Part shown: in pieces, positions 26,959-54,421 of the stretch
Position numbering within the stretch: the stretch's first letter is position 1
Layout: each line of letters opens with the position of its first letter
Assembly: GCF_016135805.1 (NCBI RefSeq)
Contig: NZ_JADWOX010000006.1
Coordinates: 1-64,000, forward strand
Reading direction: 5' to 3'
Origin: Caulobacter hibisci
Lineage (GTDB): Bacteria; Pseudomonadota; Alphaproteobacteria; Caulobacterales; Caulobacteraceae
Length of the DNA: 64,000 nt
Program-made: the position numbers and the translations under genes
The notes under the pieces: generated by a model
The model's input: the letters and a program-made list of their open reading frames with translations, nothing else
Database searches by the model: none
What the model was told of the DNA's origin: nothing

Positions 26959-27560
26959 TGGCCGTCGGGGATCACCGACGTGCCGATCATCCGATCGATC
27001 CGCAGTTCCTGGAGCGTTGGTCGCCGCGCGCCTTCAGCGATGCGCCCCTGTCGCCGGACCAACTCCTCATCCTGTTGGAGGCCGCCCGCTGGGCGCCATC
27101 GGCGTTCAACAGCCAGCCCTGGCGGTTCGTCTACGCCTTCCGCGACGGGCCCGGCTGGCCGGCGCTGCTGGACGCGCTGGTGCCGTTCAACCGCCAATGG
27201 GCGGGCCGGGCGGGAGCGCTTGTGGCGGTCGCCTCGAAGACGACGATGCTGCGTCCAGGCCAGTCCGCGGCCGAGCCGTCCCACAGCCATTCCTTCGACG
27301 CCGGCGCGGCCTGGGGCTATCTGGCCCTCCAGGCCGCCCGGCTAGGCCTGGCCGCCCACGCCATGACCGGCGTCGATTTCCAGGCCGCCGGCTCGGCCAT
27401 CGGGCTTCCGGCCGACCATCGACTGGAAGCGGTCGTGGCGATCGGCGCCGCGGGCGAGGCTCAGGACCTGCCGGACTTCCTGCAGGCCCGCGAGGCACCA
27501 AGCCCGCGCGCGCCGCTGGCGACCTTCGCGTTCGAGACCCGTTTTCCTCCGGACGAATAG
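26958..27560 (+). CDS. Nitroreductase family FMN oxidoreductase
   Basis: 200 residues. The FMN-binding signature is RWSPRAFSDAPLSPDQLLIL and ARWAPSAFNSQPWRFVYA; the C-terminal half has GAAWGYLALQAARLGLAAHAM and VVAIGAAGEA. Such enzymes reduce flavins, quinones or nitro groups with NAD(P)H. Because the start overlaps the LLM stop, the simplest guess is that it supplies reduced flavin to, or acts after, the LLM monooxygenase. Confidence 0.9.
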   Translation: MAVGDHRRADHPIDPQFLERWSPRAFSDAPLSPDQLLILLEAARWAPSAFNSQPWRFVYAFRDGPGWPALLDALVPFNRQWAGRAGALVAVASKTTMLRPGQSAAEPSHSHSFDAGAAWGYLALQAARLGLAAHAMTGVDFQAAGSAIGLPADHRLEAVVAIGAAGEAQDLPDFLQAREAPSPRAPLATFAFETRFPPDE

Positions 27561-27590
27561 GAAGGGGGCTGGGACAACCCGGAACTGAAA

Positions 27591-27617
27591 AAGGCCCCGC
27601 GAAGCTCGCGGGGCCTT
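27591..27617. terminator. Bidirectional terminator between convergent genes
   Basis: 12-base-pair stem (27591-27602 with 27606-27617) with flanking A and T runs on both sides, placed between the nitroreductase gene and the leftward amidohydrolase gene. Confidence 0.85.
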
Positions 27618-27639
27618 TCTTGTTGTCGGTCCCGCCGGT

Positions 27640-28623
27640 TCAGAACGGTTTCAGCTGCAGCAGCTTCTGGGCGTTCTCGTCGAGGATGGCGGTCTTTTCG
27701 GCGTCGGTCAGGTAGGGGTCGTTCTTGATGTAGGCGACCGCTTCGGTCAGCGAGGCGAAGATTTCGTCCGAGCCCAGCACCAGGCGATCGACCCCGTAGC
27801 TTTCCTTGACCAGCAGCATGGCGTGAGGAACATCCTGCACCGAGGTGTCGTACCAGAACCTCTTGTAGGCGCTCATCGGGTCGGCATGGTCCAGCGGCAG
27901 CTTCTTGACCCAGCCGAAGAAGCCAGCGCCGACCGCGTCGGTGGCGGTCATGTCCAGACCCCGGCGCAGGTTCTTCTCCAGCCGCGACCACATGAACGGC
28001 AGGTAGCCGCCGCAGACGGCGAACACGAACTTGATGTTGGGGTAGCGAGACTGGACGCCCGAATAGATCAGCCGCGTGGCGGCCGTCGAGGTCTGCAGCG
28101 GGCTGCCATAGGCGGTGTGCAGCCCATACTCCTTGAGGCCGAAGTGGCAACACGAGTGCTGGCCGACCGGGTGGACGTAGGCGACGGCCGAGCGCTTGTC
28201 GAGTTCGGCCCAGAAAGGCTCGAAGTCGGGATCGTCCAGGGGCCGCCCCTGGTAGAAGCAGGGGAAGGCCAGGCCCGCGAACTTCAGCTCGTCCAGGCAG
28301 TAGATCGCTTCTTTGATGGCCTCGTCGACATAGGGCAGGGGCAGCCAGCCGAACGATCGGAAGCGGCCGTTGTGCTCGATCTCTAGCGCCTTGTAGCGGT
28401 CGTTGATGTAGCGGGCGGCCTTGGCGGCCTTCTCCGGATCCGGAATCTGGGTGTCCAGGCCCACCGCGCTCAGGACCTGGGCGTCGACCTGGTTCTCGTC
28501 CAGCGTGGCCAGGCGACGCGAGACGTCCGCGGCCTGTCCGAAGCCGCGCACCGGCAGGCCCAGATCGGCGAGATACTCGACGTAGTCGGTGGGAAAGAAG
28601 TGGGCGTGGACGTCGATGCGCAT
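27640..28623 (-). CDS. ACMSD-like amidohydrolase (amidohydrolase 2 family), altered active site
   Basis: 327 residues with the TIM-barrel layout of 2-amino-3-carboxymuconate-semialdehyde decarboxylase and gamma-resorcylate decarboxylase. Metal ligands H6 and H8 are in VHAHFF, H151 is in AYVHPVGQH, and D286 is in LVLGSDEIF. The catalytic His expected before GG in this family (as in AHGGG) is replaced: the sequence is FAVCGGYLPF, residues 201-210. It could be a hydrolase or decarboxylase with altered mechanism. It stands alone, leftward, with an operator-like site about 130 bases upstream shared with the LLM, TonB-receptor and flavin-reductase genes, suggesting a role in the same catabolic route. 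Confidence 0.88.
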   Translation of the reverse strand: MRIDVHAHFFPTDYVEYLADLGLPVRGFGQAADVSRRLATLDENQVDAQVLSAVGLDTQIPDPEKAAKAARYINDRYKALEIEHNGRFRSFGWLPLPYVDEAIKEAIYCLDELKFAGLAFPCFYQGRPLDDPDFEPFWAELDKRSAVAYVHPVGQHSCCHFGLKEYGLHTAYGSPLQTSTAATRLIYSGVQSRYPNIKFVFAVCGGYLPFMWSRLEKNLRRGLDMTATDAVGAGFFGWVKKLPLDHADPMSAYKRFWYDTSVQDVPHAMLLVKESYGVDRLVLGSDEIFASLTEAVAYIKNDPYLTDAEKTAILDENAQKLLQLKPF

Positions 28624-28745
28624 GGTTTCCTCCGGCGCGGACGCCGCAACGCCGCGCCATCATGTTTCTGATTGAGCGTCTGGCGCGCAGCCAGGAAGCC
28701 GAGCCGTTCTAGGAGGGGGAAAAGCAGGCGGACCAATGAATAAGG

Positions 28746-28761
28746 GGCATGCCCCCATCAG
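28746..28761 (+). promoter_or_regulatory. Putative LysR operator, site B
   Basis: GGCAT-GCCCCC-ATCAG. The 12 bases ATGCCCCCATCA are identical to site D at 33744-33759. It lies about 130 bases before the amidohydrolase ATG. This copy lacks the TTTAT left arm. Confidence 0.45.
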
Positions 28762-28767
28762 CCGTTT

Positions 28768-29733
28768 TCATCGTCCCGTGTCATCGTCCGGGACAGGCGG
28801 CATGGCCGCCGCGGCGGCCTTCAACTGGTCGAGCAGCCAGGCCAGGGCTGGCTCGCCGGTCCGATACGGCTGCCACTGGGCGACGAAGGTCATGACCGGG
28901 GTGGGGGCGGGGATCGGGAAGCAACGCAGCGGCAGGGTCTCGGCGCTGGCGCGGGCGAACCGGGCGGGCATCGTCACCAGCAGATCGGTGCCGATGATCA
29001 CCTGCGGCAGGGCCGACAGGGTGCTGGTGCGGACCGTGACCTTGCGCTGGCGGGCGATCTCGCCGAACGCGGTCTCGGCCTGGCCGCTGGTGGCCACGTT
29101 CATCCGCTGCGTGGCGCCCGGACCCATCGAGGCGTGGGAGGCGTGATTGAGCGAGAAGAACTGCTCGCGGGTAATCTCGTCGGCCTTGCCGACCACCGAA
29201 TTGCCCTCCCAGGCCACGCACAGGAAGGTGTCGGAAAACAAGGGTTCGCGGGGGAATCGATCCGAGGCGAAGGCTTCGGCGACGATGGCCACGTCGACAT
29301 CGTCGCGAAACAGCGTCTCGACCGACTCGTAGTTGAACGGCTTGACGATGGTGGTGACGCGCGGCGCATCGCGAGCGATGCGGCCCAGGACGTCCTTCAT
29401 GTAGGTCAGTTCGAGAATGTCGGTCGTCACCAGCCGGAAGGTCTGGTCGGTGGTGGCCGGGTCGAAGTCGAGCGTCAGCCTCAGGGCGTCGCGGGCGGTC
29501 TGGATGAGCTCCTTCACACGCGGCCGCAAGGCGACGCCCAGCGTGGTCAAGGTCGTCTCGCCGCCCGAATAGACCACCAGCTCGTCGTTGTAGTGCTGGC
29601 GCAGCTTCTTGAGCGCCACGCTCATCGCCGGCTGGGTCAGGTACACCGACTTGGCCGCCTCGGTGACGCTTCGGGCGTTCAACACCGCATCGAGGGCAAC
29701 GAACAGGTTGAGGTTGAACCGGTCCAGATGCAT
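28768..29733 (-). CDS. LysR family regulator (NodD-like)
   Basis: 321 residues from the ATG at 29733. The N-terminal helix-turn-helix reads FNLNLFVALDAVLNARSVTE and AAKSVYLTQPAMSVALKKLR; the rest is the periplasmic-binding-like effector domain, with the FNLNLF start and TDILELTYMKDVL typical of the NodD/LinR branch, which respond to aromatic or flavonoid-like compounds. It is divergent from a TonB receptor gene with a dyad operator between them, the classical LysR arrangement. It is the best candidate regulator of the four TTTAT-N6-AT sites. Confidence 0.92.
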   Translation of the reverse strand: MHLDRFNLNLFVALDAVLNARSVTEAAKSVYLTQPAMSVALKKLRQHYNDELVVYSGGETTLTTLGVALRPRVKELIQTARDALRLTLDFDPATTDQTFRLVTTDILELTYMKDVLGRIARDAPRVTTIVKPFNYESVETLFRDDVDVAIVAEAFASDRFPREPLFSDTFLCVAWEGNSVVGKADEITREQFFSLNHASHASMGPGATQRMNVATSGQAETAFGEIARQRKVTVRTSTLSALPQVIIGTDLLVTMPARFARASAETLPLRCFPIPAPTPVMTFVAQWQPYRTGEPALAWLLDQLKAAAAAMPPVPDDDTGR

Positions 29734-32449: not shown

Positions 32450-33661
32450 ATGGGTACGAGTGTCGATTTGAACGCTGGTCGTCGACCGGGGACGGCGCAG
32501 GGCGTCGCCCTGCTGGCCGCGACGGTGCTGCCGATCATGGGAGTGGTGTCGCTGGCGCCGGTGCTGCCGCGCCTGCTGGAGGTGTTCGGCGACCAGCCCA
32601 ACGTCCACATCCTGGTGCCCGTGGCGCTGACCGCGCCTGGCCTCTGCATCGCCCTGCTGTCGCCCGTAGCCGGCGTGCTGACCGACTGGTTGGGGCGGCG
32701 AACCCTGCTGCTGGCGGGGCTGGGTCTCTATCTGGTCTGCGGTCTGCTGCCGTTCTTCCTGTCGACCCTGCCGCAACTGATCGCCAGCCGGGTGGGACTG
32801 GGCGTCGCCGAGGCGATCATCATGACCGGCACCACGACGCTGATGAGCGACTATTTCACCGACGGCGAACGGCAGAGGTGGGTGGCCATCCAGGGCGGCC
32901 TGGGCTCCTTGGCCGGGTCCGTCCTGTTCGTGGCGGGCGGCGCGCTCGGCGCGATCGGTTGGCGCTGGCCGTTCGCCCTCTACGGGCTGGCCCTGCCGAT
33001 CATGATCGCCGTCGCGGCGGTGATCTGGGAGCCCAAGCGCCGGCAGGTCCTCGACGTCGCGCGCGACGCGGCCAAGGCTCCGTTTCCTGGCCGCGCCATG
33101 GCGGTGCTCGCCCTGACCACGGTGCTGTGCGCCGTGGTGTTCTATCTGGCCGTGATCCAGCTAGGGCTCGTCCTTCAGGGCATCGGCGTCACCTCGCCGG
33201 CGACCATCGGGGCCGTCACCGCGCTGGGCAGCCTGGGCGTGCCGATCGGGGCGTTCGTCTACAGCCGGCTGGGACGGTGGTCTCTCGGCAAGCTGTTGGC
33301 CCTGGCCCTGGTCTGCACGGGCGCGGGCCTGGTGGGTCTGGGCTTTTCCAAGAGCGTTCCGGCCGTCTTCGCCGCGACGGCCCTCAATCAGTTCGGTTGT
33401 GGGATCCTGCTGCCCACCCTGATCCTCTGGGCCATGAACACCGCATCGCTGCGCTGGCGAGGGCGCGTTATCGGCTTGTGGAACGGATCGTTCTTCATCG
33501 GACAGTTCCTGAGCCCGGTCAGCGCCGCCCTGATCGCCAAGGGCGCGGGCCTTCCCACGACCCTGGCGCTGTTTGGCGGCCTGACGGTTCTCGGCGCGAT
33601 CCTGGCCTTCGCGCTTGGCCGGCGAACGGTGATGGTCGGCGCGCATCCCAAACCGATCTAG
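32450..33661 (+). CDS. MFS transporter
   Basis: 403 residues with about twelve hydrophobic helices. The loop between helices 2 and 3 carries the MFS signature GVLTDWLGRRTLLLAG, with the half-conserved copy SRLGRWSLGKLLALA in the second half. It is an inner-membrane carrier, probably proton-driven, for uptake or export. It lies in the catabolic region between a TonB receptor and a flavin reductase, so import of the receptor's ligand is likely but unproven. Confidence 0.9.
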   Translation: MGTSVDLNAGRRPGTAQGVALLAATVLPIMGVVSLAPVLPRLLEVFGDQPNVHILVPVALTAPGLCIALLSPVAGVLTDWLGRRTLLLAGLGLYLVCGLLPFFLSTLPQLIASRVGLGVAEAIIMTGTTTLMSDYFTDGERQRWVAIQGGLGSLAGSVLFVAGGALGAIGWRWPFALYGLALPIMIAVAAVIWEPKRRQVLDVARDAAKAPFPGRAMAVLALTTVLCAVVFYLAVIQLGLVLQGIGVTSPATIGAVTALGSLGVPIGAFVYSRLGRWSLGKLLALALVCTGAGLVGLGFSKSVPAVFAATALNQFGCGILLPTLILWAMNTASLRWRGRVIGLWNGSFFIGQFLSPVSAALIAKGAGLPTTLALFGGLTVLGAILAFALGRRTVMVGAHPKPI

Positions 33662-33759: not shown

Positions 33760-33823
33760 GCCTTTGAATTGGCCAGGAAAAAGCGGGTGCGCTCTAAGGG
33801 CGGCGGGTTTGGAGACCGCCTTC

Positions 33824-34327
33824 GTGACCATTGATCCCGACCGTTTCAAGCTGGGCATGCGCCAGTTGGGCGCCAGCGTCTGCGTCATCACCACGCTACA
33901 ATCCGACGGCGCCCGGGCGGGGTTCACCGCAACGGCCGTCTGCTCGCTCTCGGCCGATCCGGCCCTGCTGCTGTGCTGCGTGAACCTCTCGAGTCGGTCC
34001 TTGGGCGTGATCCGCCGCACGGGCCTGTTCGCCGTCAATGTTCTGAGCGCCAGGGACGAGCGGGTCGCGCGCCAGATGGCCAGCTCCCGATCCGACGAAC
34101 GCTTCGCCCTGGGAGCGTGGAAACGGCTTGCAACAGGGGCTCCGATCTTGAGTTCGGCCCTGGCGAGCTTCGACTGCGCCTTGGACCGCGTGGTCGAAGC
34201 CGGCACCCACGCCATCTTGATCGGCGCGGTGCGCGAGGTGGCGGTCGCGTCGGCGTCCGCTTCGCCCTTGCTCTACCACGATGGAAACTATGGGGCCTTC
34301 GAGGTGATGTCGCCGACGCTGGCCTGA
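33824..34327 (+). CDS. Flavin reductase (two-component monooxygenase type)
   Basis: 167 residues, a flavin-reductase-like domain: FKLGMRQLGASVCVITTLQ, GFTATAVCSLSADPALLLCC and the end PLLYHDGNYGAFEV. Such proteins reduce FMN or FAD with NAD(P)H for a partner monooxygenase. The GTG at 33824 is chosen: it gives VTIDPDRF, typical for the family, with GGAG 9 bases upstream; an in-frame TTG lies 15 bases earlier. The partner is most likely the LLM monooxygenase at 25819, which has the same operator-like element. Confidence 0.9.
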   Translation: MTIDPDRFKLGMRQLGASVCVITTLQSDGARAGFTATAVCSLSADPALLLCCVNLSSRSLGVIRRTGLFAVNVLSARDERVARQMASSRSDERFALGAWKRLATGAPILSSALASFDCALDRVVEAGTHAILIGAVREVAVASASASPLLYHDGNYGAFEVMSPTLA

Positions 34328-34479: not shown

Positions 34480-34507
34480 CTATTCAAACAATCGGTTTTG
34501 TCGATAG
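34480..34507 (+). promoter_or_regulatory. Putative operator before the FAD-hydroxylase operon
   Basis: CTATTCA at 34480-34486 faces TCGATAG at 34501-34507, an imperfect dyad about 66 bases before the FAD-monooxygenase ATG. Related CTAT(T/C)(C/G)A boxes occur at other catabolic promoters in the window. Confidence 0.4.
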
Positions 34508-34572: not shown

Positions 34573-35691
34573 ATGAATTTGGACCAGGTGCTGATCGTTG
34601 GCGGGGGTATCGCCGGGCTCACCTCGGCCATCGCGTTGCGCGCCAAAGGCTTCGATGTCGACGTCGTGGAGCAGGACCCCAACTGGTCCGTCTACGGGGT
34701 GGGGATCATTCAGCAGGGCAATGTGGTCCGCGCCGTGGCGCAACTGGGCGTTCTCGAGGACTACCTGGCCGCCAGCTACCCCTTCGCGGGCCTTGAGATG
34801 TTCGCCCCCAACGGGGCGCATCTGGTCAGCATCCCGACGCCGAAGCTGGCGGGCGAGGACTATCCGGCCAATCTCGGGATCTCGCGTCCCGCGCTGCACA
34901 AGGTGCTCGGTGACCGCGCCCTGGCCGCCGGCGCCAAGATCCGCCTGGGACTGACGATCGAGCATTTCGAGGACCAGGGCGACCAGGTCAGCGTCGTGTT
35001 TTCCGATGGAACGACCGGCGTCTACGGCCTGGTGATCGGCGCCGACGGCCTCTACTCCAAAACCCGCTCGATGCTGTTTGGCGATCGCTACGCGCCCGCC
35101 TTCACCGGCCAGGCGGTGTGGCGCTACAACCTGCCAAGACCAGACGACGTGACCGCGCTGCATGTCTACACCGGTCCCAACAGCGTGGGCCTGGTGCCGT
35201 TGTCTGACGAGGCCATGTACCTCTTCGTCACCTCGCCGGAGCCGGGAAATCCCTGGTTCGCGCTCGAGGATCGCGCCGCGGAGATGCGCTCGCGGCTCGC
35301 CTTCGCCGGTGGTCGCATCGGCGCGCTGCGCGAACAGATCGTCGATGACGCTGCCGTCGTCTACCGACCGCTCGAAGCCCTTTTCGTCGATCGCGACTGG
35401 TTCGAAGGGCGCGTGATCCTGATCGGCGACGCGGCCCACGCCACCACCCCGCATCTGGGCCAGGGCGCGGGCATGGCCATCGAGGACTCCCTGGTCCTGG
35501 CGGACGAGTTGGCGAAGGCCAAGGACCTGCCGACGGCCCTGAGCGGCTTCATGGCGCGGCGCTACGACCGTTGCAAATTCATCGTCGAGGCCTCGCTGGA
35601 GGTCGGCCAGTGGCAGCTGGACCGCCGCACCGACGTCGACAACCCCGGCATGGTCCATCGGATGTTCGAAGTCACATCCCAGCCGATCTGA
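34573..35691 (+). CDS. FAD-dependent aromatic hydroxylase
   Basis: 372 residues, a group A flavoprotein monooxygenase: dinucleotide motif VGGGIAG (residues 9-15), the central VIGADGLYSKTRSML motif, and GDAAHATTPHLGQGAGMAIEDS, the second FAD motif. These enzymes use NAD(P)H and O2 to hydroxylate aromatic or pyridine rings. It is the first gene of a rightward operon with extradiol dioxygenase, hydrolase, cupin and FAH genes, so it probably makes the catechol-like ring-cleavage substrate. GGAGGAC precedes the ATG. Confidence 0.9.
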   Translation: MNLDQVLIVGGGIAGLTSAIALRAKGFDVDVVEQDPNWSVYGVGIIQQGNVVRAVAQLGVLEDYLAASYPFAGLEMFAPNGAHLVSIPTPKLAGEDYPANLGISRPALHKVLGDRALAAGAKIRLGLTIEHFEDQGDQVSVVFSDGTTGVYGLVIGADGLYSKTRSMLFGDRYAPAFTGQAVWRYNLPRPDDVTALHVYTGPNSVGLVPLSDEAMYLFVTSPEPGNPWFALEDRAAEMRSRLAFAGGRIGALREQIVDDAAVVYRPLEALFVDRDWFEGRVILIGDAAHATTPHLGQGAGMAIEDSLVLADELAKAKDLPTALSGFMARRYDRCKFIVEASLEVGQWQLDRRTDVDNPGMVHRMFEVTSQPI

Positions 35692-35743
35692 TCGGACTGG
35701 CGCAACACCACGCGGTCCTGCCGCACCTTGGAGAATATTGGAT

Positions 35744-36646
35744 ATGGCGCGCGTTTCGGAAATCCGCTTCGTCGGATACGCGGTCCCCGGTCTTGAGGCC
35801 GAACGAAAATTCTACACGGACGTCTGGGGGCTGACGGAAGTCGCCGCCGAGGACGGCCTGGCCTATTTCGCGGCCGCCGGAACCCCGGAAAAGTACGTCG
35901 TGCGGCTGCGCCAGGCAGACGAGCCGCGCATCGACGTCATCGCTTGGGCCGCGCAGAACAGGGCCGATGTCGACGCCCTGTTCGAACAGGTCCAGGCTGA
36001 GGGCGGCAAGATCATCAGCCCGCCCGCCGAACTGACGTCCCTGGGCGGCGGCTATGGCTTTCGGTTCTTCGACCCCGACGGCCACACCCTGCAGATCTCG
36101 GCCGAGGTCGAGCAAGGACCCTCGCGCGACCTGAAGCGCAACGAGGCGATCCCCACCAAGATCAGCCACGTCGTCATGCACGCGCCCAATCACAAGGCGA
36201 CGGTGGCCTGGTACGAGAAGGCCTTGGGCTTCAAGGTCTCCGACTGGCTCGGCGACTTCATGTGCTTCCTGCGTTGCAACAGCTGGCACCACCGGCTGGC
36301 CTTCCTGCCGGGACCGCCGTGTCTCAACCACGTGGCCTATGATGTCCTGACCGTCGACGACATGATGCGCGGCATCGCGCGGCTTAAGAAGAACGACATC
36401 GACATCCAGTGGGGGCCTGGCCGCCACACGGCCGGCAACAACACCTTCAGCTATTTCATCAGCCCGGGCGGCAACGTCGTCGAATACACCTCGGAGCTGG
36501 AGTCCGTCGACGACGAGACCTGGCAGATGACGGTCCACAAGCCGACCCCCGACACCATGGACCAGTGGGGCGTCGGCGTCGGCGGCCCGCAGACCATGCC
36601 TCATCCCGCGCCCGACAAGGGCCTCTGGAAGGCCCCCGCGGCTTAA
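35744..36646 (+). CDS. Type I extradiol (VOC) ring-cleavage dioxygenase
   Basis: 300 residues, two VOC modules. The C-terminal module has the Fe(II) triad: H142 in ISHVVMH, H196 in LNHVAYD and E247 in NVVEYTSE. Such enzymes open catechol-type rings beside the diol. The ATG at 35744 is preferred to an in-frame TTG two codons earlier. The active-site segment NSWHHRLAF and the gene order after a hydroxylase and before a hydrolase fit a ring-cleavage step; the ring could equally be a hydroxypyridine. Confidence 0.9.
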   Translation: MARVSEIRFVGYAVPGLEAERKFYTDVWGLTEVAAEDGLAYFAAAGTPEKYVVRLRQADEPRIDVIAWAAQNRADVDALFEQVQAEGGKIISPPAELTSLGGGYGFRFFDPDGHTLQISAEVEQGPSRDLKRNEAIPTKISHVVMHAPNHKATVAWYEKALGFKVSDWLGDFMCFLRCNSWHHRLAFLPGPPCLNHVAYDVLTVDDMMRGIARLKKNDIDIQWGPGRHTAGNNTFSYFISPGGNVVEYTSELESVDDETWQMTVHKPTPDTMDQWGVGVGGPQTMPHPAPDKGLWKAPAA

Positions 36647-36657
36647 GGACCTCAGTG

Positions 36658-37809
36658 ATGTTCGAGTATTTCAAGAACTACGTCTGGAACCTGTCGGTCG
36701 ACATCGCCATCGAGAGCGGCGCCCAGATCGGCGAGATCGACGAGATGTGCCGGCCGATGCGCGACGCGGTCGATCGCGGCGACGACGCGGGCACCGGCGA
36801 GTTTCTCAAGCACTGGGTGGCCATGGCCGACAAGCTGTCGGACCTGGCGGCCGAGGACGAGGCCCTGGGCCGCGATTTCAGCGCCGGGACCAAGCTGCAG
36901 CGCGCCAGCCTCTACTACGTGACCGCCGAGCGCATGCAGGGCCACGGCCATCCGGGCCGCCAGGAGACCTACGCCAAGGCCCGCGCCGCTTTCGATCGCG
37001 CCATGGCTCGGGGCCGCGAGAACGCCGAGCGCGTCGAAATCCCCTATGAGGGCGGCGTCATCGCCGGCGTCTTCGTCAAGGCGGCCGGCGAGGGGCCCAA
37101 GCCGGTGGTCGTCTATGTCAACGGCCTGGATAGCAACAAGGAGCTGCTCTACTGGAGCGGCCTGCCGGCGGCCCTGCTGCGCCGGGGCGTCTCGACCCTG
37201 TGCATCGACCAGCCGGGCTCGGGCGAGGCCCTGCGCCTGCACGGCCTGCACGCCACGCACGAGAGCGAGCGTTGGGCCTCCAAGGTCGTCGACTATCTGG
37301 AAACCCGGCCCGAGGTCGACGCATCCCGCATCGGCATGACCGGCATCTCGCTGGGCGGCTACTACACGCCGCGCGCGGTGGCCATGGAGCCCCGGTTCGC
37401 GCTGGGCGCGGTCTGGGGCGCCAATCACAATTGGGCCGAGGTTCAGCAAAAGCGCCTGGCCCGCGAAGGTGAAAACCCCGTGCCGCACTACTGGGCCCAC
37501 GTTCAATGGGTGTTCGGCGCGACCGACATGGACGACTTCCTGGCCAAGTCCGCGGGCATGACCCTCGACGGGGTGGTCGAGAAGATCAAGGTGCCGTTCC
37601 TGGTCACCCACGGCGAGCGCGACCGCCAGATCGGCCTGACCTACGCCCACCAGACCTTCGACCAGCTGACGGGCAGCCCCAAGCGAGAGTTGAAGATCTT
37701 CACCGACCGCGAAGGCGGGGTCGAGCATGTCGGCGTCGACAACATGAGTTACGGGCGAGATTTCATCGCCGACTGGATTGCCCAGACCTTCGGGGAGAAA
37801 ACCGCATGA
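36658..37809 (+). CDS. Alpha/beta hydrolase with helical N-terminal domain (pseudooxynicotine-hydrolase-like)
   Basis: 383 residues. An N-terminal helical domain of about 120 residues precedes an alpha/beta hydrolase core with GISLGGYY (nucleophile S231), THGERDRQI (D322) and EHVGVD (H357). This layout resembles 2,6-dihydroxypseudooxynicotine hydrolase and FrsA-like enzymes, which break C-C bonds next to a ketone. It follows the extradiol dioxygenase after 11 bases and overlaps the cupin gene by 4 bases (ATGA), so it very likely hydrolyses the ring-cleavage product. Confidence 0.88.
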   Translation: MFEYFKNYVWNLSVDIAIESGAQIGEIDEMCRPMRDAVDRGDDAGTGEFLKHWVAMADKLSDLAAEDEALGRDFSAGTKLQRASLYYVTAERMQGHGHPGRQETYAKARAAFDRAMARGRENAERVEIPYEGGVIAGVFVKAAGEGPKPVVVYVNGLDSNKELLYWSGLPAALLRRGVSTLCIDQPGSGEALRLHGLHATHESERWASKVVDYLETRPEVDASRIGMTGISLGGYYTPRAVAMEPRFALGAVWGANHNWAEVQQKRLAREGENPVPHYWAHVQWVFGATDMDDFLAKSAGMTLDGVVEKIKVPFLVTHGERDRQIGLTYAHQTFDQLTGSPKRELKIFTDREGGVEHVGVDNMSYGRDFIADWIAQTFGEKTA

Positions 37810-38354
37810 GCCCGCGTCCCGTCCGCGTCGTCGTCACCGGCCACGATCCGCAAGGCGTGGCGTTCATCCAGTCCGACGGCCCGGCCGGCCGTGTCTTCGA
37901 CAAGCTTGGCCAAGAGGGCCTGGTGTTCCACGAGATCTGGAATACCCCGCAGACCCCCGTGCTGATCGACAAGGCCGGCGGACAGCCGCCCGAGGACAAG
38001 CTCGCCCTGGCGCCGCCCAAGGGCGGCGCGCGTATCCGCGTGCTCGATATCCCGCCCGACGATCCGGCGGTCGTGCTCGACGAGGTGTTCGAGGCCATCG
38101 ATGCGGCGGACAACTACAAGGGCGCGACCAGTGACCGGCACGCCAGCTTCCATCGCACCGAGACGCTCGACTACGGCATCGTGCTCGAGGGCGAGCTTGT
38201 GCTGATCATGGACGAGGGCGAGGCCACCGTGCGGGCCGGCGATATCGTCGTCCAGCGCGGCACCAACCATGGTTGGGCCAACCGGACTGACAAGAACTGC
38301 CGCATCGCCTTCATCCTGATCGATGGGCAATACACGGACGGCCTGGAAGGATGA
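37806..38354 (+). CDS. Cupin-fold protein
   Basis: 182 residues. An N-terminal half without clear motifs precedes one cupin barrel: HRTETLDYGIVLEGELVLIM and GEATVRAGDIVVQRGTNHGW with His residues suited to metal binding. Single-domain cupins in catabolic operons act as isomerases, hydrolases or oxygenases, or as binding proteins. It overlaps both neighbours by 4 bases, so it is translated with them. Exact reaction unknown. Confidence 0.85.
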   Translation: MSPRPVRVVVTGHDPQGVAFIQSDGPAGRVFDKLGQEGLVFHEIWNTPQTPVLIDKAGGQPPEDKLALAPPKGGARIRVLDIPPDDPAVVLDEVFEAIDAADNYKGATSDRHASFHRTETLDYGIVLEGELVLIMDEGEATVRAGDIVVQRGTNHGWANRTDKNCRIAFILIDGQYTDGLEG

Positions 38355-39325
38355 AGCTCGCGACCTTGCCCGACGGCTCCCGCGACGGCTGGCTCGTGGT
38401 GGTGTCGCGCGACCTCAAGGGCGCGGCCTCGGCCGGCAAGCTGGCCCAGTCGATGCAGGAGGCGCTCGACGGATGGGACGAGATCCACGCCGATCTCCAG
38501 GCCCTCTATGAGGATCTCAATCTCGGCAAGGCCGCCGGCTCGTTCAGGTTCGATCCGAAGGTGGCCTTGGCGCCCTTGCCGCGCGCCTATCAGTGGCTCG
38601 ACGCCTCGGCCTTCCTGTCGCACGGTGTCCTGATGCAACGGGCGCTCGGCCTCGAGGTCAGTCCTCAGGTCGACGCCAAGCCGCTGATGTATCAGGGCGG
38701 CTCTGACGACTTCCTGGGCCCCTGCGCGCCGGCGTGCTTCCCCAGCGAAGCGCACGGCATCGACTTCGAAGGCGAGTTCGGGGTGATCCTGGCCGACACC
38801 CCCATGGGCGTATCGGCCGAGGCGGCCGAGGCCTCCATCCGCCTGGTGGTCCAGCTCAACGACTGGAGCCTGCGCGGTCTGGCCAAGCGCGAGATGGCCT
38901 CGGGTTTTGGGTTCCTGCAGGCCAAGCCGTCGACGGCCTTCGCGCCGGTCGCCGTCACGCCCGACGAACTGGGCCCAGCCTGGGTCGATGGGCGGATCAA
39001 GCTGCCGTTGAACGTGACCTGGAACGGCGAGACCTTCGGCAATCCCGATGGCGGCAAGATGGACTACCGGTTCGGCCAACTGATCGCCCACGCTGCGGCC
39101 ACGCGCCGGCTGCGGGCCGGAACGATCCTTGGCACAGGCACGGTCTCCAACGCCGACGCCGAGGCGGTCGGATCGGCCTGCGTGTCCGAGCGCAGGGCGC
39201 TGGACGCCATCGCCGGCCGGGAACCGACGGCGTTCCTGCGCTATGGCGACCGGGTGAGGATGGAAGCGCTGGGGCCGGACGGCCAGGCGCTGTTTGGCGC
39301 GATCGACCAGGTCGTCAGCGCCTGA
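38351..39325 (+). CDS. Fumarylacetoacetate hydrolase family protein
   Basis: 324 residues. The FAH-fold metal site is visible as GIDFEGEFGVI (E140, E142) with the following LNDWSLRG (D171), and the C-terminal half has GTVSNADAEAVGSAC. The family includes fumarylacetoacetate and acylpyruvate hydrolases, oxaloacetate decarboxylases and hydratases. As the last gene of the operon (4-base overlap with the cupin gene) it most likely cleaves a beta-diketo acid into central metabolites. Confidence 0.9.
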   Translation: MKLATLPDGSRDGWLVVVSRDLKGAASAGKLAQSMQEALDGWDEIHADLQALYEDLNLGKAAGSFRFDPKVALAPLPRAYQWLDASAFLSHGVLMQRALGLEVSPQVDAKPLMYQGGSDDFLGPCAPACFPSEAHGIDFEGEFGVILADTPMGVSAEAAEASIRLVVQLNDWSLRGLAKREMASGFGFLQAKPSTAFAPVAVTPDELGPAWVDGRIKLPLNVTWNGETFGNPDGGKMDYRFGQLIAHAAATRRLRAGTILGTGTVSNADAEAVGSACVSERRALDAIAGREPTAFLRYGDRVRMEALGPDGQALFGAIDQVVSA

Positions 39326-39349: not shown

Positions 39350-39377
39350 GCGGCCGGGGCGACACCGCGCCGGCCGC
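39350..39377 (+). terminator. Possible terminator of the FAD-hydroxylase operon
   Basis: 8-base-pair GC stem (39350-39357 with 39370-39377) followed by TTCGTCTTGTC, 24 bases after the FAH-family stop. The T content is weak. Confidence 0.5.
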
Positions 39378-39605: not shown

Positions 39606-40547
39606 ATGCGGTTCCAAGGCCTTGACCTCAATCTACTGGTGGCGCTGGACGCCTTGCTGACCGAGCAGAACGTCTCGGCCGCGGCGGAAAACGTCCATCT
39701 CAGCCAGTCGGCGATGAGCAGCGCCCTCAACCGCCTGCGCGACTATTTTGGCGACGACCTGCTGAGCATCCAGGGTCGGCGCATGGTTCTGACGCCGCGC
39801 GCCGAAAGCCTGGCCGATCCGGTTCGCACGGCGCTGCTGCACATCCGGTCGACCATCACCACCCAGCCCACCTTCGATCCGGCGACGGCGAAACGGGCTT
39901 TCACGCTCTCGGCCTCGGACTACGCCCAGACCGTCGTGGTGGCGCCGGCCTTGGCCAGGGTTCGCGAGATCGCGCCGGGGCTGTCGTTCGACATCACCGC
40001 GCCGGGGCCGGCGGCCCAGCGCGCGCTGGAGCAGGGGGAGCTGGACATCTATCTGAGCCTCGAACAGTTCGCCGTCGCCGACCATCCGCACGCGGCCCTC
40101 TTCGAGGACGACTACGTGGTCGTCGCTTGGAAGGACAACCCGCTGACCCAGGGCGGCGTCGACGCGGCGCTCTATTTCGATCTGGGGCACGTGTCCGTGC
40201 AGTTCGGGCCCGCTCGACTGCCAGCGTTCGACGAGTGGTTCATCAAATCGGCGCGCCAGCCTCGCAAGGTCGAGGTCACCGTCCCATCGTTCGTCATGGC
40301 CCCGCAGTTCCTGATCGGAACCAGCCGGATCACCACCATGCACCGGCGCCTGGCTGAAACCTTCGCCGCGACCCTGCCGATAGCGGTCTTTCCCGTGCCG
40401 TTCGAAATCCCGAAGGTTCGCCAAGTCGCTCAATGGCATCGTTTCAACGAGCGCGACGAAGGCATCCGCTGGCTGGTCGCCCAAATGAGAGAGACGGCCG
40501 GGGAAGCTCCTCATAAATCCAACCTATCCAATCTATTCACGGTGTGA
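39606..40547 (+). CDS. LysR family regulator (second copy, NodD-like)
   Basis: 313 residues. The DNA-binding domain is LDLNLLVALDALLTEQNVSA and AAENVHLSQSAMSSALNRLR; the effector domain follows. The ATG at 39606 is preceded by GGGAG. It is placed between the FAH-family gene and a TonB-receptor gene in the same direction, not divergent. Its stop codon lies inside an inverted repeat (40533-40551) that could be its operator for the receptor. It shares the LxxNLLVALDAxL start with the regulator at 28768. Confidence 0.92.
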   Translation: MRFQGLDLNLLVALDALLTEQNVSAAAENVHLSQSAMSSALNRLRDYFGDDLLSIQGRRMVLTPRAESLADPVRTALLHIRSTITTQPTFDPATAKRAFTLSASDYAQTVVVAPALARVREIAPGLSFDITAPGPAAQRALEQGELDIYLSLEQFAVADHPHAALFEDDYVVVAWKDNPLTQGGVDAALYFDLGHVSVQFGPARLPAFDEWFIKSARQPRKVEVTVPSFVMAPQFLIGTSRITTMHRRLAETFAATLPIAVFPVPFEIPKVRQVAQWHRFNERDEGIRWLVAQMRETAGEAPHKSNLSNLFTV

Positions 40548-40564
40548 ATAGAGCCTATCCAATC
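40523..40564 (+). promoter_or_regulatory. Operator-like repeat cluster before the second TonB receptor
   Basis: A perfect inverted repeat CTATTCAC-GGT-GTGAATAG (40533-40551) is flanked by two identical 11-base direct repeats CCTATCCAATC at 40523 and 40554, 31 bases apart. The cluster overlaps the LysR stop codon and lies about 150 bases before the receptor ATG. Confidence 0.55.
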
Positions 40565-40706
40565 ATTGCGTTTGTCCGGTTCTCTGTTTCGCCGCCCAAT
40601 GGTTTTCGCAAGGCTGAGGGCCGCGTCTCTCAGTTGCACGATCAACGACCGCCAAGAGCTCAAAAGGGCCGGCGGCAACTGGCCCTAGGCCAGTATGGGG
40701 AGCGAA

Positions 40707-43001
40707 ATGAACCGGAAGCACCATCGTCTTTTGGCGTCCGTCGCCACGATCGCCCTGAGCACGTCGGCCGCCAGCGCCGCCTTCGCCCAGGACACGCAGC
40801 AGACCGCGGCCAGCCAGAGCGTCAGCCTCGAAGAGGTGGTCGTCACCGCCCAGCGGCGCGAAGAAAATCTCCAGAAGACCGCCCTGGCGGTCAGCGCCGT
40901 GACCGGCGACACCCTGACCCGGTCCAGCGTCACCCAGGCGACCGACCTGACGCGTCTGGTGCCGGCGATCCAGATCGCCCCGGCCGCCGCCTTCACCCAG
41001 ATCTATTTGCGCGGGGTGGGCACCTTTGGGGCCAACGCCTTCGCCGAACAGGGCGTGGCCTTCAATCTCGACGGCGTCTACCTGTCGCGTCCGGCCGCGC
41101 CGGCCGGCCTGTTCTACGATCTGGAGCGGATCGAGGTGCTGAAGGGCCCGCAAGGCACGCTCTACGGCCGCAACGCCACCGGCGGCGCCGTCAACGTCAT
41201 CACCGCCAAGCCCAAGCTGGGCGAGACCGGCGGCAATCTGTCGGCCGAGTACGGAAACTACGCCGCGACCAAGGCCTCGGGCGCGGTCAATGTGCCGATC
41301 GGCGAGACCGCGGCCCTGCGGGTCTCGGGTCAATACGCCAAGCACGATGGCTATTTCAGCGACGGCTATGACGACGAGGACACCAAGGCCGTTCGCGCCC
41401 AACTGCGCTTCCAGCCGGACGGGCCGATCGACGTGCTGCTCAGCGCCGACTACGCCGACGTCGGCGGCAAGGGCTCGGGCGGCGCGATCATGCCGCTGGT
41501 CGATGGCGACGCGCGCCTGGGTCCCAGCGATCCCAGGGTGCTGGCGGCCTATCTGGCCCGCACGCCCACAGCGCCCGTTCCGCAGCTGATCGCCAAGGAC
41601 GACGGCTATCAGGACAACAGGTTCAAGGGCGTTTCGGCCACGATCAACGCAGACCTCGGCTTTGCCAAGCTGACCATCATTCCAGCCTGGCGCAAGACGG
41701 ACCTGGATTTCCGCAGCTACGCGTCGAGCTTCCTGATCGACATCACCGAGGCCTCCGAGCAACGCTCGCTCGAAGCGCGGCTGGGTGGTTCGACCGATCG
41801 CCTGAACTGGGTGGTGGGCGCCTACGGCTTCTCCGAGGACGTCGACGCCGATCAGCTGTTCGACCAGGCCAGCAACGCCTCCTATATCCGCTCCAAGCTG
41901 AAGACGAGGAGCTTGGCGGCTTTCGGCCAGGCGACCTGGTCGCTCAGCGACCAGCTGCGGGTGACGGGCGGTCTTCGCTACACCAAGGACAACAAGAAGC
42001 AGGACAGCTACTCCGAAAACCGGCCCTTCGTCGGCTTCGCGCCGCCGGTGGGGCCGACCTTCACCCCGATCATCCTGGTGGTGCCGACCACGGCTGCCAC
42101 CGACGTGGACTTCAAGAAGGCCACCTGGAAGGCGGGGCTGGAATATGACCTGGCCGAGCGCTCGCTGCTCTATGCCAACGTCGCGACCGGCTTCAAGTCC
42201 GGCGTCCTCTTCGCCGCCAGCGGCAAGAACTATTCCCAGCCCGAGATGCTGACGGCCTACACGATCGGCTCCAAGAACCGCTTCCTCGACAACCGGCTGC
42301 AGCTGAACGTCGAGACCTTCTACTGGGACTACAAGGACCAGCAGATCTCCCACCTGGGCGCGGTGCAGGTGGCCACCACGCCGGGCGGCCCGATCTACGG
42401 GCCGCTGTTCACGACCGAGAACGCCGGCAAGGCGGCGATCTACGGCGCCGAGGCCGACGTGATGTTCCAGGCCACCGCCAACGACCTGGTCACCGCCAAT
42501 CTCCAGTATCTGCACGCTCAGTATGACGACCTGAAATACCAGGCCTATTCCACCACCGGCGCGGCGCCCGCGGTCGGCTGCGCGGTCGCGCTGACCTCGC
42601 AGACCGGCACCAGCGCCGCGGCCAAGATCTACAATGTCGACTGTTCGGGGCGGCCCGTCGTCAATGCGCCGCGCTACGTGATCAACCTGGGCTACGAGCA
42701 CCGCTTCCCGCTCAGCAACGGCGCCAGGATCGTCTTCGGCGTCGACACCCGACTGGAAGGCTCGCGCTACCTGTCGACCGACTACCTCGCCGACGGTCGC
42801 CAAGGCAGCTACAGGATGTCCAACGCCCGGGCGAGCTACGAGACCGAGGACGGGCGCTACGTCTTCACCGGCTTCGTCAACAACATCGAAGACGAGGTGG
42901 TCTTCGCCAATTCCCTGCAAAGCCCGGTCAAGTCCGGCACGGTCTACAATCAGGTTCGGCCGCCGCGCACCTACGGTGTTCGCGTCAGCGCCAAGTTCTA
43001 G
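40707..43001 (+). CDS. TonB-dependent outer-membrane receptor (second)
   Basis: 764 residues. Signal peptide MNRKHHRLLASVATIALSTS ending near AFAQ, a plug starting VVVTAQRREENLQKTALAVS with IEVLKGPQGTLYGRNATGGA, and a barrel ending PPRTYGVRVSAKF. It resembles the receptor at 30027 in plug and C-terminus but differs in the extracellular loops, so it probably takes a related but different ligand. The upstream repeats suggest control by the LysR encoded just before it. Confidence 0.93.
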   Translation: MNRKHHRLLASVATIALSTSAASAAFAQDTQQTAASQSVSLEEVVVTAQRREENLQKTALAVSAVTGDTLTRSSVTQATDLTRLVPAIQIAPAAAFTQIYLRGVGTFGANAFAEQGVAFNLDGVYLSRPAAPAGLFYDLERIEVLKGPQGTLYGRNATGGAVNVITAKPKLGETGGNLSAEYGNYAATKASGAVNVPIGETAALRVSGQYAKHDGYFSDGYDDEDTKAVRAQLRFQPDGPIDVLLSADYADVGGKGSGGAIMPLVDGDARLGPSDPRVLAAYLARTPTAPVPQLIAKDDGYQDNRFKGVSATINADLGFAKLTIIPAWRKTDLDFRSYASSFLIDITEASEQRSLEARLGGSTDRLNWVVGAYGFSEDVDADQLFDQASNASYIRSKLKTRSLAAFGQATWSLSDQLRVTGGLRYTKDNKKQDSYSENRPFVGFAPPVGPTFTPIILVVPTTAATDVDFKKATWKAGLEYDLAERSLLYANVATGFKSGVLFAASGKNYSQPEMLTAYTIGSKNRFLDNRLQLNVETFYWDYKDQQISHLGAVQVATTPGGPIYGPLFTTENAGKAAIYGAEADVMFQATANDLVTANLQYLHAQYDDLKYQAYSTTGAAPAVGCAVALTSQTGTSAAAKIYNVDCSGRPVVNAPRYVINLGYEHRFPLSNGARIVFGVDTRLEGSRYLSTDYLADGRQGSYRMSNARASYETEDGRYVFTGFVNNIEDEVVFANSLQSPVKSGTVYNQVRPPRTYGVRVSAKF

Positions 43002-44587: not shown

Positions 44588-47278
44588 ATGGCCAGCTCCA
44601 AGCCCCAGACCACAGCCCATCCCAAGCTCGCCAAATATCAGGAGATGCGCGACTTCTCGCGCACGGCCGAGCCGGCGGGCAATGACAAGGTCAAGCCGTC
44701 CCAGGCCCTGCGGTTCGTCATTCAGAAGCACGCGGCCAGCCATCTACATTTTGACCTGCGGCTGGAGTTCGAAGGCGCCTTCAAATCCTGGGCCGTGCCC
44801 AAGGGGCCGTCGATGGACCCGGCCGAACGGCGCCTGGCCATGGAGGTCGAAGACCATCCGCTCGACTATGGCGACTTCGAGGGCACGATCCCGAAGGGCC
44901 AATACGGCGGCGGCACGGTGATGCTGTGGGATCGCGGCTATTGGGCGCCCGAAAAGGGGTTCGAGAAGATCGGCGCGGCCCTGGCCAAGGGCGAGCTGAA
45001 GTTCGTCATGGAAGGCGGACGCCTGCATGGCTCCTGGGTCATCGTGCGCACCAAGCGCGACAGCAAGGGGCGCGCCAGCTGGATCCTGATCAAGCACCGC
45101 GACGACGCGGCCCAGCCCGGCAACCCCGCCGGCCCGACCGACCAGGACCGCTCGATCGCCTCGGGGCGGACCATGATCGACATCGCCAATGGCAAGGGCA
45201 ATGCTGCAACGCCGTTCATGACCGGGGAGGGCGCCGACGCCGGCGCGGTCTGGCAAAGCAACCGCGACGACAGCGCTTCGGCCGGCTTGACCAAGCCGGC
45301 GAAGACAACCGTCACGGGCAAGGCCCCAGCCAAACCCCAAGCCAAGACCAAGACCGTCAAGGCGTTGCCGGACTTCGTCGAGCCGCAACTGACCAAGCCG
45401 GCGGAAAAGCCGCCCGCCGGCCCGGGCTGGGCCCATGAGATCAAGTTCGACGGCTACCGGATGCAACTGCGAACGGTGGGAGGCAAGGCGACCTTGCGCA
45501 CGCGCAAGGGGCTGGACTGGTCGGCCAAGTTTCCGGAGATCACGAAGGCGGGGGCGGGCCTTGCCGATGGGATCATCGATGGCGAGGTCTGCGCCCTGGA
45601 CCATACCGGGGCGCCGGATTTCGCGGCCCTGCAGGCGGCGATCTCCGAGGGCGCGACCGCCGACCTGGTGTTCTTCGTCTTCGACCAGCTGTTCGATGGT
45701 AAGGCGGACCTGCGCGACCTACCCCTGGCCGAGCGCAAGGCGCGTCTGGCCGACCACCTAAAGGGGACTGGGCCGAACCTGCGCTATGTCGATCACTTCA
45801 TCACCGCCGGGGACGCGGTGCTGCTGTCGGCCTGCCGCATGGACCTTGAAGGGATCATCTCCAAGCGCCTGGACGCGCCCTACCGCTCGGGACGAGGCGA
45901 GACCTGGACCAAGTCCAAGTGCCGAGCCGGCCACGAGGTGGTGATCGGCGGCTACACCACGACCAATGGCGCTTTCCGCTCGCTGATCGCCGGGGTCCAC
46001 CGCGACGGCAAGCTCTTGCACATCGGCCGCATCGGCACCGGGTTTGGCCGCGACAAGGTCGCGGTGATCCTTCCGAGGCTGAAGGCGCTCGAGACGCCAA
46101 AGTCACCGTTCGAGGGCAAGGAAGGGCCCAGCCGGGCGTGGCGGCTCGGGGAGGTCCACTGGGTGCGGCCCGAGCTTGTCGCCGAGATCGAATACGAAGG
46201 CTTCACCGCCGAGGGCCAACTGCGCCAGGCCGCCTTCAAGGCCCTGCGCGAGGACAAGCCCGCCGCCGAGGTGGAGGCCGAGACGCCCGCGCCGGCCGAC
46301 ACCGCCCTGGCCGAGCCCAAGGCCCAGAAGGCCGTTCCCGCTGCCGCAGCGGTGAAATCACCGACCGTGAGCGCCAAGGGCTCGGCCGTGGTCATGGGGC
46401 AGACGATCTCCAACGCCGGCAAAACCCTCTGGCCAGACGCCAATGACGGACGCCCCGTGACCAAGCTGGAGCTTGCGCAATATTACGAGACGATCGGCCC
46501 CTGGATGATCGAACATCTGCGCGGCCGGCCATGCTCGATGATCCGCATGCCCGACGGCGTCGACGGGGCGCAGAAGTTCTTCCAGCGCCACACCAGCCAA
46601 GGCCAATCGGCCCTGATCACCGAGGTCGAGGTCTGGGGCGATCGCAAGCCCTACCTGCAGTTCGACAAGGTCGAGGCCCTGGTCGCCGCCGCCCAGGTCG
46701 GGGCGCTGGAGCTGCATCCCTGGAACAGCGAGCCTTTTCTTCCCGAGCAGCCGGGGCGACTGGTCTTCGACCTGGATCCTGCGCCCGACGTGCCGTTCGA
46801 GCGGGTGATCGAGGGCGCGCGCGAGGTGCGCGACCGCCTGCAGGATCTGGGTCTCGTGTCGTTTTGCAAGACCACCGGCGGCAAGGGCCTTCACGTGGTG
46901 ACCCCCCTGTCGGCCGAGGGCCTTGATTGGGATGTCGCCAAGGCCTTCGCCCGCGACGTCTGCAAGGCCATGGCCGCCGATGATCCCGAGCGTTACTTGA
47001 TCACCATGGCCAAGAAGGATCGCGGCGGGCGGATCTTCCTGGACTATCTGCGCAACGACCGGATGGCCACGGCCGTGGCGCCGCTGTCGCCGCGCGGGCG
47101 ACCCGGCGCGCCGGTGTCGATGCCAATCACCTGGACCCAGGTGAAGAAGGGCCTGGATCCGGCCCGATATACCCTGCGCACGGTCCCAGCCTTGGTCGCC
47201 AAGCTGACGGCCTGGGAAGACTATTGCGATGGCGAGCGGCCGCTGGAGCCGGCCATCCGCCGACTGGGCAAGGTGTGA
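44588..47278 (+). CDS. ligD: Multifunctional DNA ligase D (end joining)
   Basis: 896 residues with three modules in the Pseudomonas order. The 3'-phosphoesterase comes first (about 45-180; HLHFDLRLEFEGAFKSWAVP). The ATP-dependent ligase follows (about 265-560) with nucleophile Lys near 286 in HEIKFDGYRM. The primase-like polymerase is last (about 600-890), with the DLDPAPD metal motif near 727. LigD trims, fills and seals double-strand breaks held by Ku. A low-complexity Ala/Lys linker (about 560-600) joins ligase and polymerase. Ku is encoded convergently about 600 bases past its stop. Confidence 0.96.
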   Translation: MASSKPQTTAHPKLAKYQEMRDFSRTAEPAGNDKVKPSQALRFVIQKHAASHLHFDLRLEFEGAFKSWAVPKGPSMDPAERRLAMEVEDHPLDYGDFEGTIPKGQYGGGTVMLWDRGYWAPEKGFEKIGAALAKGELKFVMEGGRLHGSWVIVRTKRDSKGRASWILIKHRDDAAQPGNPAGPTDQDRSIASGRTMIDIANGKGNAATPFMTGEGADAGAVWQSNRDDSASAGLTKPAKTTVTGKAPAKPQAKTKTVKALPDFVEPQLTKPAEKPPAGPGWAHEIKFDGYRMQLRTVGGKATLRTRKGLDWSAKFPEITKAGAGLADGIIDGEVCALDHTGAPDFAALQAAISEGATADLVFFVFDQLFDGKADLRDLPLAERKARLADHLKGTGPNLRYVDHFITAGDAVLLSACRMDLEGIISKRLDAPYRSGRGETWTKSKCRAGHEVVIGGYTTTNGAFRSLIAGVHRDGKLLHIGRIGTGFGRDKVAVILPRLKALETPKSPFEGKEGPSRAWRLGEVHWVRPELVAEIEYEGFTAEGQLRQAAFKALREDKPAAEVEAETPAPADTALAEPKAQKAVPAAAAVKSPTVSAKGSAVVMGQTISNAGKTLWPDANDGRPVTKLELAQYYETIGPWMIEHLRGRPCSMIRMPDGVDGAQKFFQRHTSQGQSALITEVEVWGDRKPYLQFDKVEALVAAAQVGALELHPWNSEPFLPEQPGRLVFDLDPAPDVPFERVIEGAREVRDRLQDLGLVSFCKTTGGKGLHVVTPLSAEGLDWDVAKAFARDVCKAMAADDPERYLITMAKKDRGGRIFLDYLRNDRMATAVAPLSPRGRPGAPVSMPITWTQVKKGLDPARYTLRTVPALVAKLTAWEDYCDGERPLEPAIRRLGKV

Positions 47279-47281
47279 CCC

Positions 47282-47880
<599 letters not shown>

Positions 47881-47884
<4 letters not shown>

Positions 47885-53571: not shown

Positions 53572-53640
53572 CGAAATGCTCCTTCTGGACGGACAACTTC
53601 GCCGATCGGGAAGGCCGTCGAAATCAAACAAGGCAGGGCG

Positions 53641-53661: not shown

Positions 53662-53665
53662 GCGC

Positions 53666-54400: not shown

Positions 54401-54421
54401 GGGGTATCTCCTCGAGAAAGA

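Follow-up and report, generated by a model that had tools for sequence, protein, structure and literature searches.

A five-gene operon of Caulobacter hibisci that probably cleaves ring A of a flavonoid with a dioxygenase outside the FdeC clade

Which aromatic compound is opened by the products of the five-gene operon at positions 34573 to 39325 of the Caulobacter hibisci DNA analysed here? This DNA, hereafter the window, is a stretch of 64,000 nucleotides (contig NZ_JADWOX010000006.1, positions 1 to 64,000). The operon lies on the forward strand (+) and encodes a FAD-dependent hydroxylase with the Pfam domain FAD_binding_3, putatively an FdeE-like flavonoid 8-hydroxylase (34573..35691), a type I extradiol dioxygenase of the Glyoxalase/VOC family, of a subfamily apart from FdeC and IfcB (35744..36646), an alpha/beta C-C hydrolase of the fde type, similar to 2,6-dihydroxypseudooxynicotine hydrolase (36658..37809), a Cupin_2 protein of the fde/IfcD type, predicted to act on a lactone freed of ring A (37806..38354), and an fde-type FAH-family hydrolase with FAA_hydrolase and FAA_hydro_N_2 domains (38351..39325). 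The hydroxylase and dioxygenase genes are 52 bases apart, the dioxygenase and hydrolase genes 11 bases, and the hydrolase/cupin and cupin/FAH junctions are both 4-base overlaps; the five genes are one tight operon. A codon-usage gene caller, whose training set included these frames, chose the same five. The initial annotation, made from the letters alone, had named these domains, the close spacing and the overlaps correctly. It had also called the gene set unusual and proposed a separate pathway for an acyl-substituted phenol or a hydroxypyridine, ending in a diketo acid cleaved by the FAH protein. We conclude, with a probability of roughly 0.72 and from sequence comparison, that the operon cleaves ring A of a flavonoid or of a very similar 7-hydroxychromanone.

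The closest characterised counterpart is the fde operon for naringenin of Herbaspirillum seropedicae. A hydrolase-based scan of named genomes was used, and among the best 80 of the 591 confirmed loci were those of Herbaspirillum sp. GW103 (L119), H. aquaticum and H. frisingense (together L119, L123 and L133). In these loci a LysR gene on the opposite strand is followed by the genes for the hydrolase, VOC dioxygenase, Rieske protein, flavoprotein hydroxylase, MFS transporter, cyclase, cupin, FAH protein and epimerase. FdeC is Hsero_1005 and FdeE is Hsero_1007 (PMC10755750), and FdeD is named a Rieske protein (PMC8552027); since the order dioxygenase, Rieske protein, hydroxylase fits this numbering, we take the Herbaspirillum loci to be fde. 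The same follows from the identities of ifc-like proteins of Bradyrhizobium japonicum USDA 135 to their Herbaspirillum counterparts (hydroxylase 35.8%, dioxygenase 63.5%), which agree with the published values of 36.3% for IfcA/FdeE and 65.8% for IfcB/FdeC (PMC11069340). Many of the best 80 loci are from Pseudomonas, in line with the report that P. thivervalensis has genes highly identical to the naringenin genes of H. seropedicae (PMC8515041); the available part of PMC4440368 makes no mention of fde. Herbaspirillum sp. GW103, H. aquaticum and H. frisingense stood in for H. seropedicae SmR1, and the Bradyrhizobium proteins took the place of IfcA and IfcB of Variovorax sp. V35.

Measured against GW103, the window proteins were 59.8% (hydrolase), 57.3% (FAH protein), 44.2% (cupin), 43.5% (hydroxylase) and 30.2% (dioxygenase) identical, and the cupin was 44-62% identical to six relatives. 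Thus, four of the five proteins have fde homologues at 44-60% identity, and the proposed steps come in the same order. The two operons differ in that the window dioxygenase belongs to another clade, and that genes for a Rieske protein, cyclase, epimerase and MFS transporter are missing from within the window operon. The gene order hydroxylase, dioxygenase, hydrolase, cupin, FAH also differs from the Herbaspirillum one, and the LysR gene is divergent in fde but downstream in the window. The ifc cluster of Variovorax sp. V35, which acts on isoflavones, likewise encodes cupins, a FAD hydroxylase, a VOC dioxygenase and a hydrolase that resembles 2,6-dihydroxypseudooxynicotine hydrolase; to the Bradyrhizobium proteins the window hydroxylase and dioxygenase were 33.6% and 30.8% identical. 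The characterised operons of known substrate, fde and ifc, therefore share the gene content of the window operon, while their exact order and dioxygenase subfamily are different. That the window operon functions like fde is well supported by these comparisons. We place it as a variant within the fde/ifc kind, set apart by a dioxygenase clade of its own, and it should not be classed as fde, because the FdeC-clade dioxygenase and the Rieske gene were looked for and are absent.

By analogy with these pathways, the flavoprotein would hydroxylate C8 to give a 7,8-catechol. Purified FdeE with NADPH gives 8-hydroxynaringenin (PMC11303751), and IfcA forms 8-hydroxydaidzein, which accumulates in an ifcB mutant (PMC11069340). 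The extradiol dioxygenase would then cut between C8 and C8a and leave the C ring as a lactone with a diketo acid side chain. FdeC is implicated in ring A opening in H. seropedicae (PMC10755750), and the IfcD1/D2 cupins convert 2-hydroxy-5-(4-hydroxyphenyl)-4H-pyran-4-one (PMC11069340); we infer C8-C8a cleavage because in this pyranone the C ring is retained and the former C8a bears an oxygen. If the substrate carries a 5-hydroxyl, the opened side chain would be C4a-CO-CH2-CO-COOH, and a retro-Claisen cut by the hydrolase between C4a and the C5 ketone would yield oxaloacetate and an aryl-oxo-valerolactone, much as the nicotine enzyme acts on its acyl-dihydroxypyridine. The diketo acid of the initial annotation fits this chemistry as an intermediate. 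Among the products from naringenin an oxovalerolactone is described and the fragment is given as oxaloacetate (PMC10755750), and 2,6-dihydroxypseudooxynicotine hydrolase is described as cutting a C-C bond (PMC11069340). Deletion of the ifc hydrolase gene 59470 left daidzein breakdown unaffected (PMC11069340). Daidzein lacks the 5-hydroxyl, so no C5 ketone would be presented to the hydrolase, and the harmless deletion is consistent with the proposed third step. The cupin would act next on the lactone, with CO2 lost afterwards; C11H8O4 + H2O - CO2 = C10H10O3 is the formula of one of the two IfcD products. Finally, the FAH protein may act on a leftover diketone or keto acid. The first and fourth steps are known from homologues in other bacteria and the second from distant homologues only, through a mutant and, weakly, an in vitro reaction. 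The position of the cut in the second step, the third and fifth steps and the scheme as a whole in C. hibisci are our inference. For the removal of the ring A remnant, PMC10755750 reports no experimental verification, and PMC11069340 leaves it to an unidentified gene. Which fde and ifc enzymes perform it after cleavage is one of two points that the comparison makes testable; the other is the role of the Rieske protein FdeD.

Several observations weigh against the flavonoid reading. After the in vitro reaction of recombinant IfcB, 8-hydroxydaidzein remained (PMC11069340), and an alternative reading of the harmless 59470 deletion is that the hydrolase has no part in the pathway. Profile hidden Markov models (HMMs) of the fde-type Rieske protein, cyclase and epimerase had no match in the window, and a search without positive control gave no cyclase match in the C. 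hibisci genome, which had weak epimerase matches only and three Rieske matches on other contigs. In a quick, midpoint-rooted tree the hydroxylase sat in a set beside, not inside, the FdeE clade (support of 97 in the Shimodaira-Hasegawa-like approximate likelihood ratio test, SH-aLRT); the IfcA-like sequence lay apart from this set, yet on a long branch. The dioxygenases fell into two separate groups, window-type and FdeC/IfcB-type (99 SH-aLRT each), in a quick tree search of 53 sequences chosen from 110 extracted, run with no bootstrap and with long-branch warnings. With 30% identity and another clade, the window dioxygenase may cut at a position different from that of FdeC. Furthermore, literature searches found no substrate or product report for any window-type cluster.

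Both dioxygenase groups should nevertheless be active extradiol enzymes, as their iron-ligand residues are kept. H142, H196 and E247 (window numbering) were invariant in eight aligned sequences from both groups and align with BphC (1han); we take them to be the 2-His-1-Glu iron ligands of the type I extradiol class. Among solved structures, the dioxygenase is related to 3b59 (E 4.5e-129), the cupin to 3es1 (E 2.2e-25) and the FAH protein to 3lzk (E 1.5e-88), entries whose generic molecule names give no function. The hydrolase matched 2,6-dihydroxypseudooxynicotine hydrolase best (2jbw, E 2.8e-21, low identity, over residues 48-353), so the resemblance to a nicotine-breakdown enzyme in the initial annotation was correct. 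Its Ser and Asp align with those of 2jbw, and the family-invariant His falls beyond the end of the match; the triad of that enzyme is presumably Ser-Asp-His.

Relatives of the FAH protein cleave or tautomerise acylpyruvates, and the names of two of its PDB neighbours, 8gsr and 4dbf, mark them as keto-acid enzymes. The FAH protein, instead of the alpha/beta hydrolase, might thus cleave the diketo acid, as the initial annotation had it. Acting as an acylpyruvase at C5-C6, it would release pyruvate and leave a lactone carboxylic acid, which then loses CO2, with the hydrolase acting elsewhere. The unaffected breakdown of daidzein in the ifc hydrolase mutant is in its favour (PMC11069340), as is the FAH gene near the hydrolase gene in 14 of the 15 window-type clusters described below (about 14 kb away in the fifteenth). 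However, the fragment from naringenin is put as oxaloacetate, not pyruvate (PMC10755750), the enzyme of known structure closest to the hydrolase performs this type of C-C cut, and an FAH gene was seen in only 32 of 80 FdeC-type loci, whose limited flanks may hide others. We regard FAH cleavage as fairly unlikely.

The gene set recurs on plasmids of Sphingomonas, Sphingobium, Novosphingobium and Croceicoccus and in further relatives, with the cupin or, instead, a cyclase-family gene; as nearly the same order recurs too, the set cannot be called unusual. The exact order of the window was found in L153, L154, L163 and L183 (the last with a dioxygenase split into two matching pieces), and L161 shares it, with hydrolase and cupin some 700 bases apart. 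Elsewhere cupin and FAH are parted by an epimerase gene (L152), MFS and epimerase genes are inserted (L055), no hydroxylase gene adjoins (L052), or some 14 kb separates cupin and FAH from the other genes (L151). Within the genus of the window, the hydrolase was present at E <=1e-60 in 6 of 75 genomes, C. hibisci included, and is thus sporadic. Two of these loci, L182 and L184, have the hydroxylase, dioxygenase and hydrolase, with no cupin or FAH gene within the 20 kb taken, and L185 (10 kb) has a hydrolase without a close dioxygenase. The two-piece matches of the dioxygenase in L183 (about 10060-10940) and of the dioxygenase and hydrolase in L184 (about 9291-11270) are possibly frameshifts or sequencing errors. 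Literature searches on Sphingomonadaceae, Caulobacter and Phenylobacterium, whose coverage took in few subscription journals, brought up no described window-type flavonoid operon recognisable by title and abstract. An operon of sphingomonads and of the window's own family thereby gains a probable pathway and substrate class, and 3b59, 3es1 and 3lzk gain context.

The same enzymes could act on a non-flavonoid acylphenol or chromone, such as an acetophenone, a simple chromanone or a coumarin, an fde-like core being kept and the dioxygenase differing with the substrate. The separate dioxygenase subfamily, the hydroxylase outside the FdeE clade and the several missing fde-associated genes would all be accommodated. 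Against this stand the 44-60% identity of hydrolase, FAH protein and cupin to the Herbaspirillum fde-type proteins, and the finding that FdeE was active on flavonoids only, among the substrates tested (PMC11303751). Four of the window-type plasmid clusters inspected, moreover, lie near glycoside hydrolase genes, as expected for flavonoid glycosides, although none was found in the window among the genes searched. A non-flavonoid substrate of this kind appears rather improbable.

A hydroxypyridine or nicotine-like pathway, to which the solved structure closest to the hydrolase and the best PDB match of the hydroxylase (6-hydroxynicotinate 3-monooxygenase) might point, was rejected as highly improbable, because nothing else links the operon to it and both matches (79 and 118 bits) are distant ones at superfamily level, as opposed to 44-60% identity to the Herbaspirillum fde-type operon. 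From the operon context 2,6-dihydroxypseudooxynicotine is an unlikely substrate of the window hydrolase. The resemblance that had been read as a pointer to a nicotine-type compound is common to the ifc cluster, and the same family occurs in the Herbaspirillum operon. Of the two substrates guessed earlier, the acyl-substituted phenol fits ring A of a flavonoid and the hydroxypyridine falls away.

Of 118 loci examined, 105 had a hydrolase of at least 45% identity, and 13, including L053 and L054, were dropped. At the thresholds used, the dioxygenase was window-type in 15 of the 105, FdeC-type in 80 and neither in 10. A Rieske gene was present in none of the 15, in 75 of the 80 and in 1 of the 10. 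Because the 80 FdeC-type loci are mostly from Pseudomonas and relatives, these counts lack independence; in 5 of the 80 no Rieske gene lies nearby. An HMM check detected no Rieske gene in the window, the 15 window-type loci, L053 or L054.

Clusters of mixed make-up separate the two enzymes with which the Rieske gene could be associated. In Haliea (L102) a hydroxylase of the window-type set is combined with FdeC-type dioxygenase and Rieske genes, and Pseudomonas loci such as L067 and L107, whose hydroxylases belong to the same wider set as that of the window (97 SH-aLRT), likewise carry genes for both an FdeC-type dioxygenase and a Rieske protein. Conversely, Novosphingobium EMRT-2 (L053) and Polymorphobacter (L054) combine FdeE-side hydroxylases with window-side dioxygenases and have no Rieske gene of the fde type. 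The Rieske gene therefore follows the dioxygenase type and not the hydroxylase clade, which speaks against FdeD as a partner of the hydroxylase, as does the activity of purified FdeE with NADPH alone. Contrary to this pairing, an FdeED complex has been reported (PMC8552027). Adjacency points to neither enzyme: the Rieske gene lay beside both genes in 55 of the 75 loci, beside the dioxygenase only in 10, beside the hydroxylase only in 7 and beside neither in 3.

A second substitution was seen at the cupin. In the window and the 15 window-type loci, with cupins counted as fde-type at E <1e-60, with HMMs built from these same loci and with some loci truncated at contig ends or by the length of flank taken, we found a cupin only in 9 (the window, L055, L151-L154, L156, L161 and L163), a cyclase only in 4 (L050, L052, L149 and L150), a cyclase with a distant cupin in 2, both in 1 and neither in none. 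This suggests that the fde-type cupin and the cyclase can replace each other in window-type clusters. At somewhat less than even odds, we propose that flavonoid breakdown uses two interchangeable ring-cleavage modules, an FdeC-type one that needs the Rieske protein and the ferredoxin-independent window clade, with cupin and cyclase interchanging at the lactone step in the latter. If so, the Rieske protein perhaps re-reduces the iron of FdeC, and FdeD would be reassigned from the hydroxylase, where it has been placed in print, to the dioxygenase.

The flanks of the operon contain further candidates. Downstream lie a LysR-type gene (39606..40547, +, start set by codon usage), possibly the operon regulator, and a TonB-dependent receptor gene (40695..43001, +) assigned by its domain match, whose product is a probable uptake protein for the substrate. 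LysR genes occur in many related loci at about 40-50% identity, a generic level; TonB receptors beside the same operon are 80% (L152), 76% (L183) and 69% (Sphingobium yanoikuyae, L051) identical to that of the window. A GC-rich inverted repeat directly 3' of the FAH gene (39350-39377) is a possible terminator. Upstream, an MFS transporter (32450..33661, +) is possibly a cluster member, since MFS genes at about 40% identity lie beside the relatives L050 and L055, linkage being weak evidence; to its GW103 counterpart it is 26.1% identical. Between it and the operon lies an HpaC/RutF-like flavin reductase gene (about 33809-34327) with no evident oxygenase partner. A two-component hydroxylase employing this reductase was considered and rejected: with the reductase as query, none of the 14 plasmid loci L050-L063 gave a match at E 1e-10, and the FAD_binding_3 make-up of the hydroxylase, which is that of single-component enzymes, disfavours it too.

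An operator-like box, ATTCAAACAATCGGTTTT, at 34482..34499 (+) ends 73 bases 5' of the hydroxylase start, and a weaker copy with 3 mismatches lies 5' of the TonB receptor gene (40557..40574, +). At up to 3 mismatches the window has these 2 matches against 0.19 expected, the pattern being drawn from one of them. The putative core, CAAACAATNNNTTT, stands 5' of the hydroxylase gene in the window and in L152, L182 and L184 of the same genus; in L183 the exact core is 5' of the adjacent TonB receptor gene and a divergent form precedes the hydroxylase. It is exact in 8 of 186 loci, among which L001 and L035 come from the window itself, L186 overlaps L152, and L176 (Rhodococcus) is not window-type. 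The core overlaps a Nod-box-like ATC-N9-GAT at 34491 and, unlike that motif, is kept in relatives; ATC-N9-GAT was rejected as near chance (16 against 12 expected in the window) and its position is not conserved.

Near fde/ifc-type genes of L056, L057, L101, L117, L126, L131, L141, L175, L177 and L178 (the same record as L060) there is a trio of DHDPS-family, aldehyde dehydrogenase and ornithine-cyclodeaminase-family genes, which in L177 (Corynebacterium) occurs alongside a dioxygenase related to that of the window. A DHDPS search gave no match in the window, nor in any of the 15 window-type loci. A hydratase-aldolase with the dehydrogenase could perform the unidentified X2 to X3 step for 5-deoxy isoflavones; the plain alternative for such a trio is the hydroxyproline pathway.

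Elsewhere in the window, a second meta-cleavage cluster (52690-63794) encodes a BphC-like dioxygenase, an SDR protein, a TonB receptor, two HsaD/BphD-like hydrolases, a hydratase, an acetaldehyde dehydrogenase, an aldolase and a FAD hydroxylase. The MhpC/BphD-type hydrolases noticed in the initial annotation are found here (57430-58269 and 61267-62097), and the cluster stands apart at 52.7-63.8 kb, in keeping with its view of the five-gene operon as a separate pathway. Genes for LigD and Ku, of non-homologous end joining, lie between the two aromatic clusters (44588-48738), and at 25819-29733 a luciferase-like monooxygenase gene is directly followed by a nitroreductase-family gene, with an amidohydrolase and a LysR gene adjoining.

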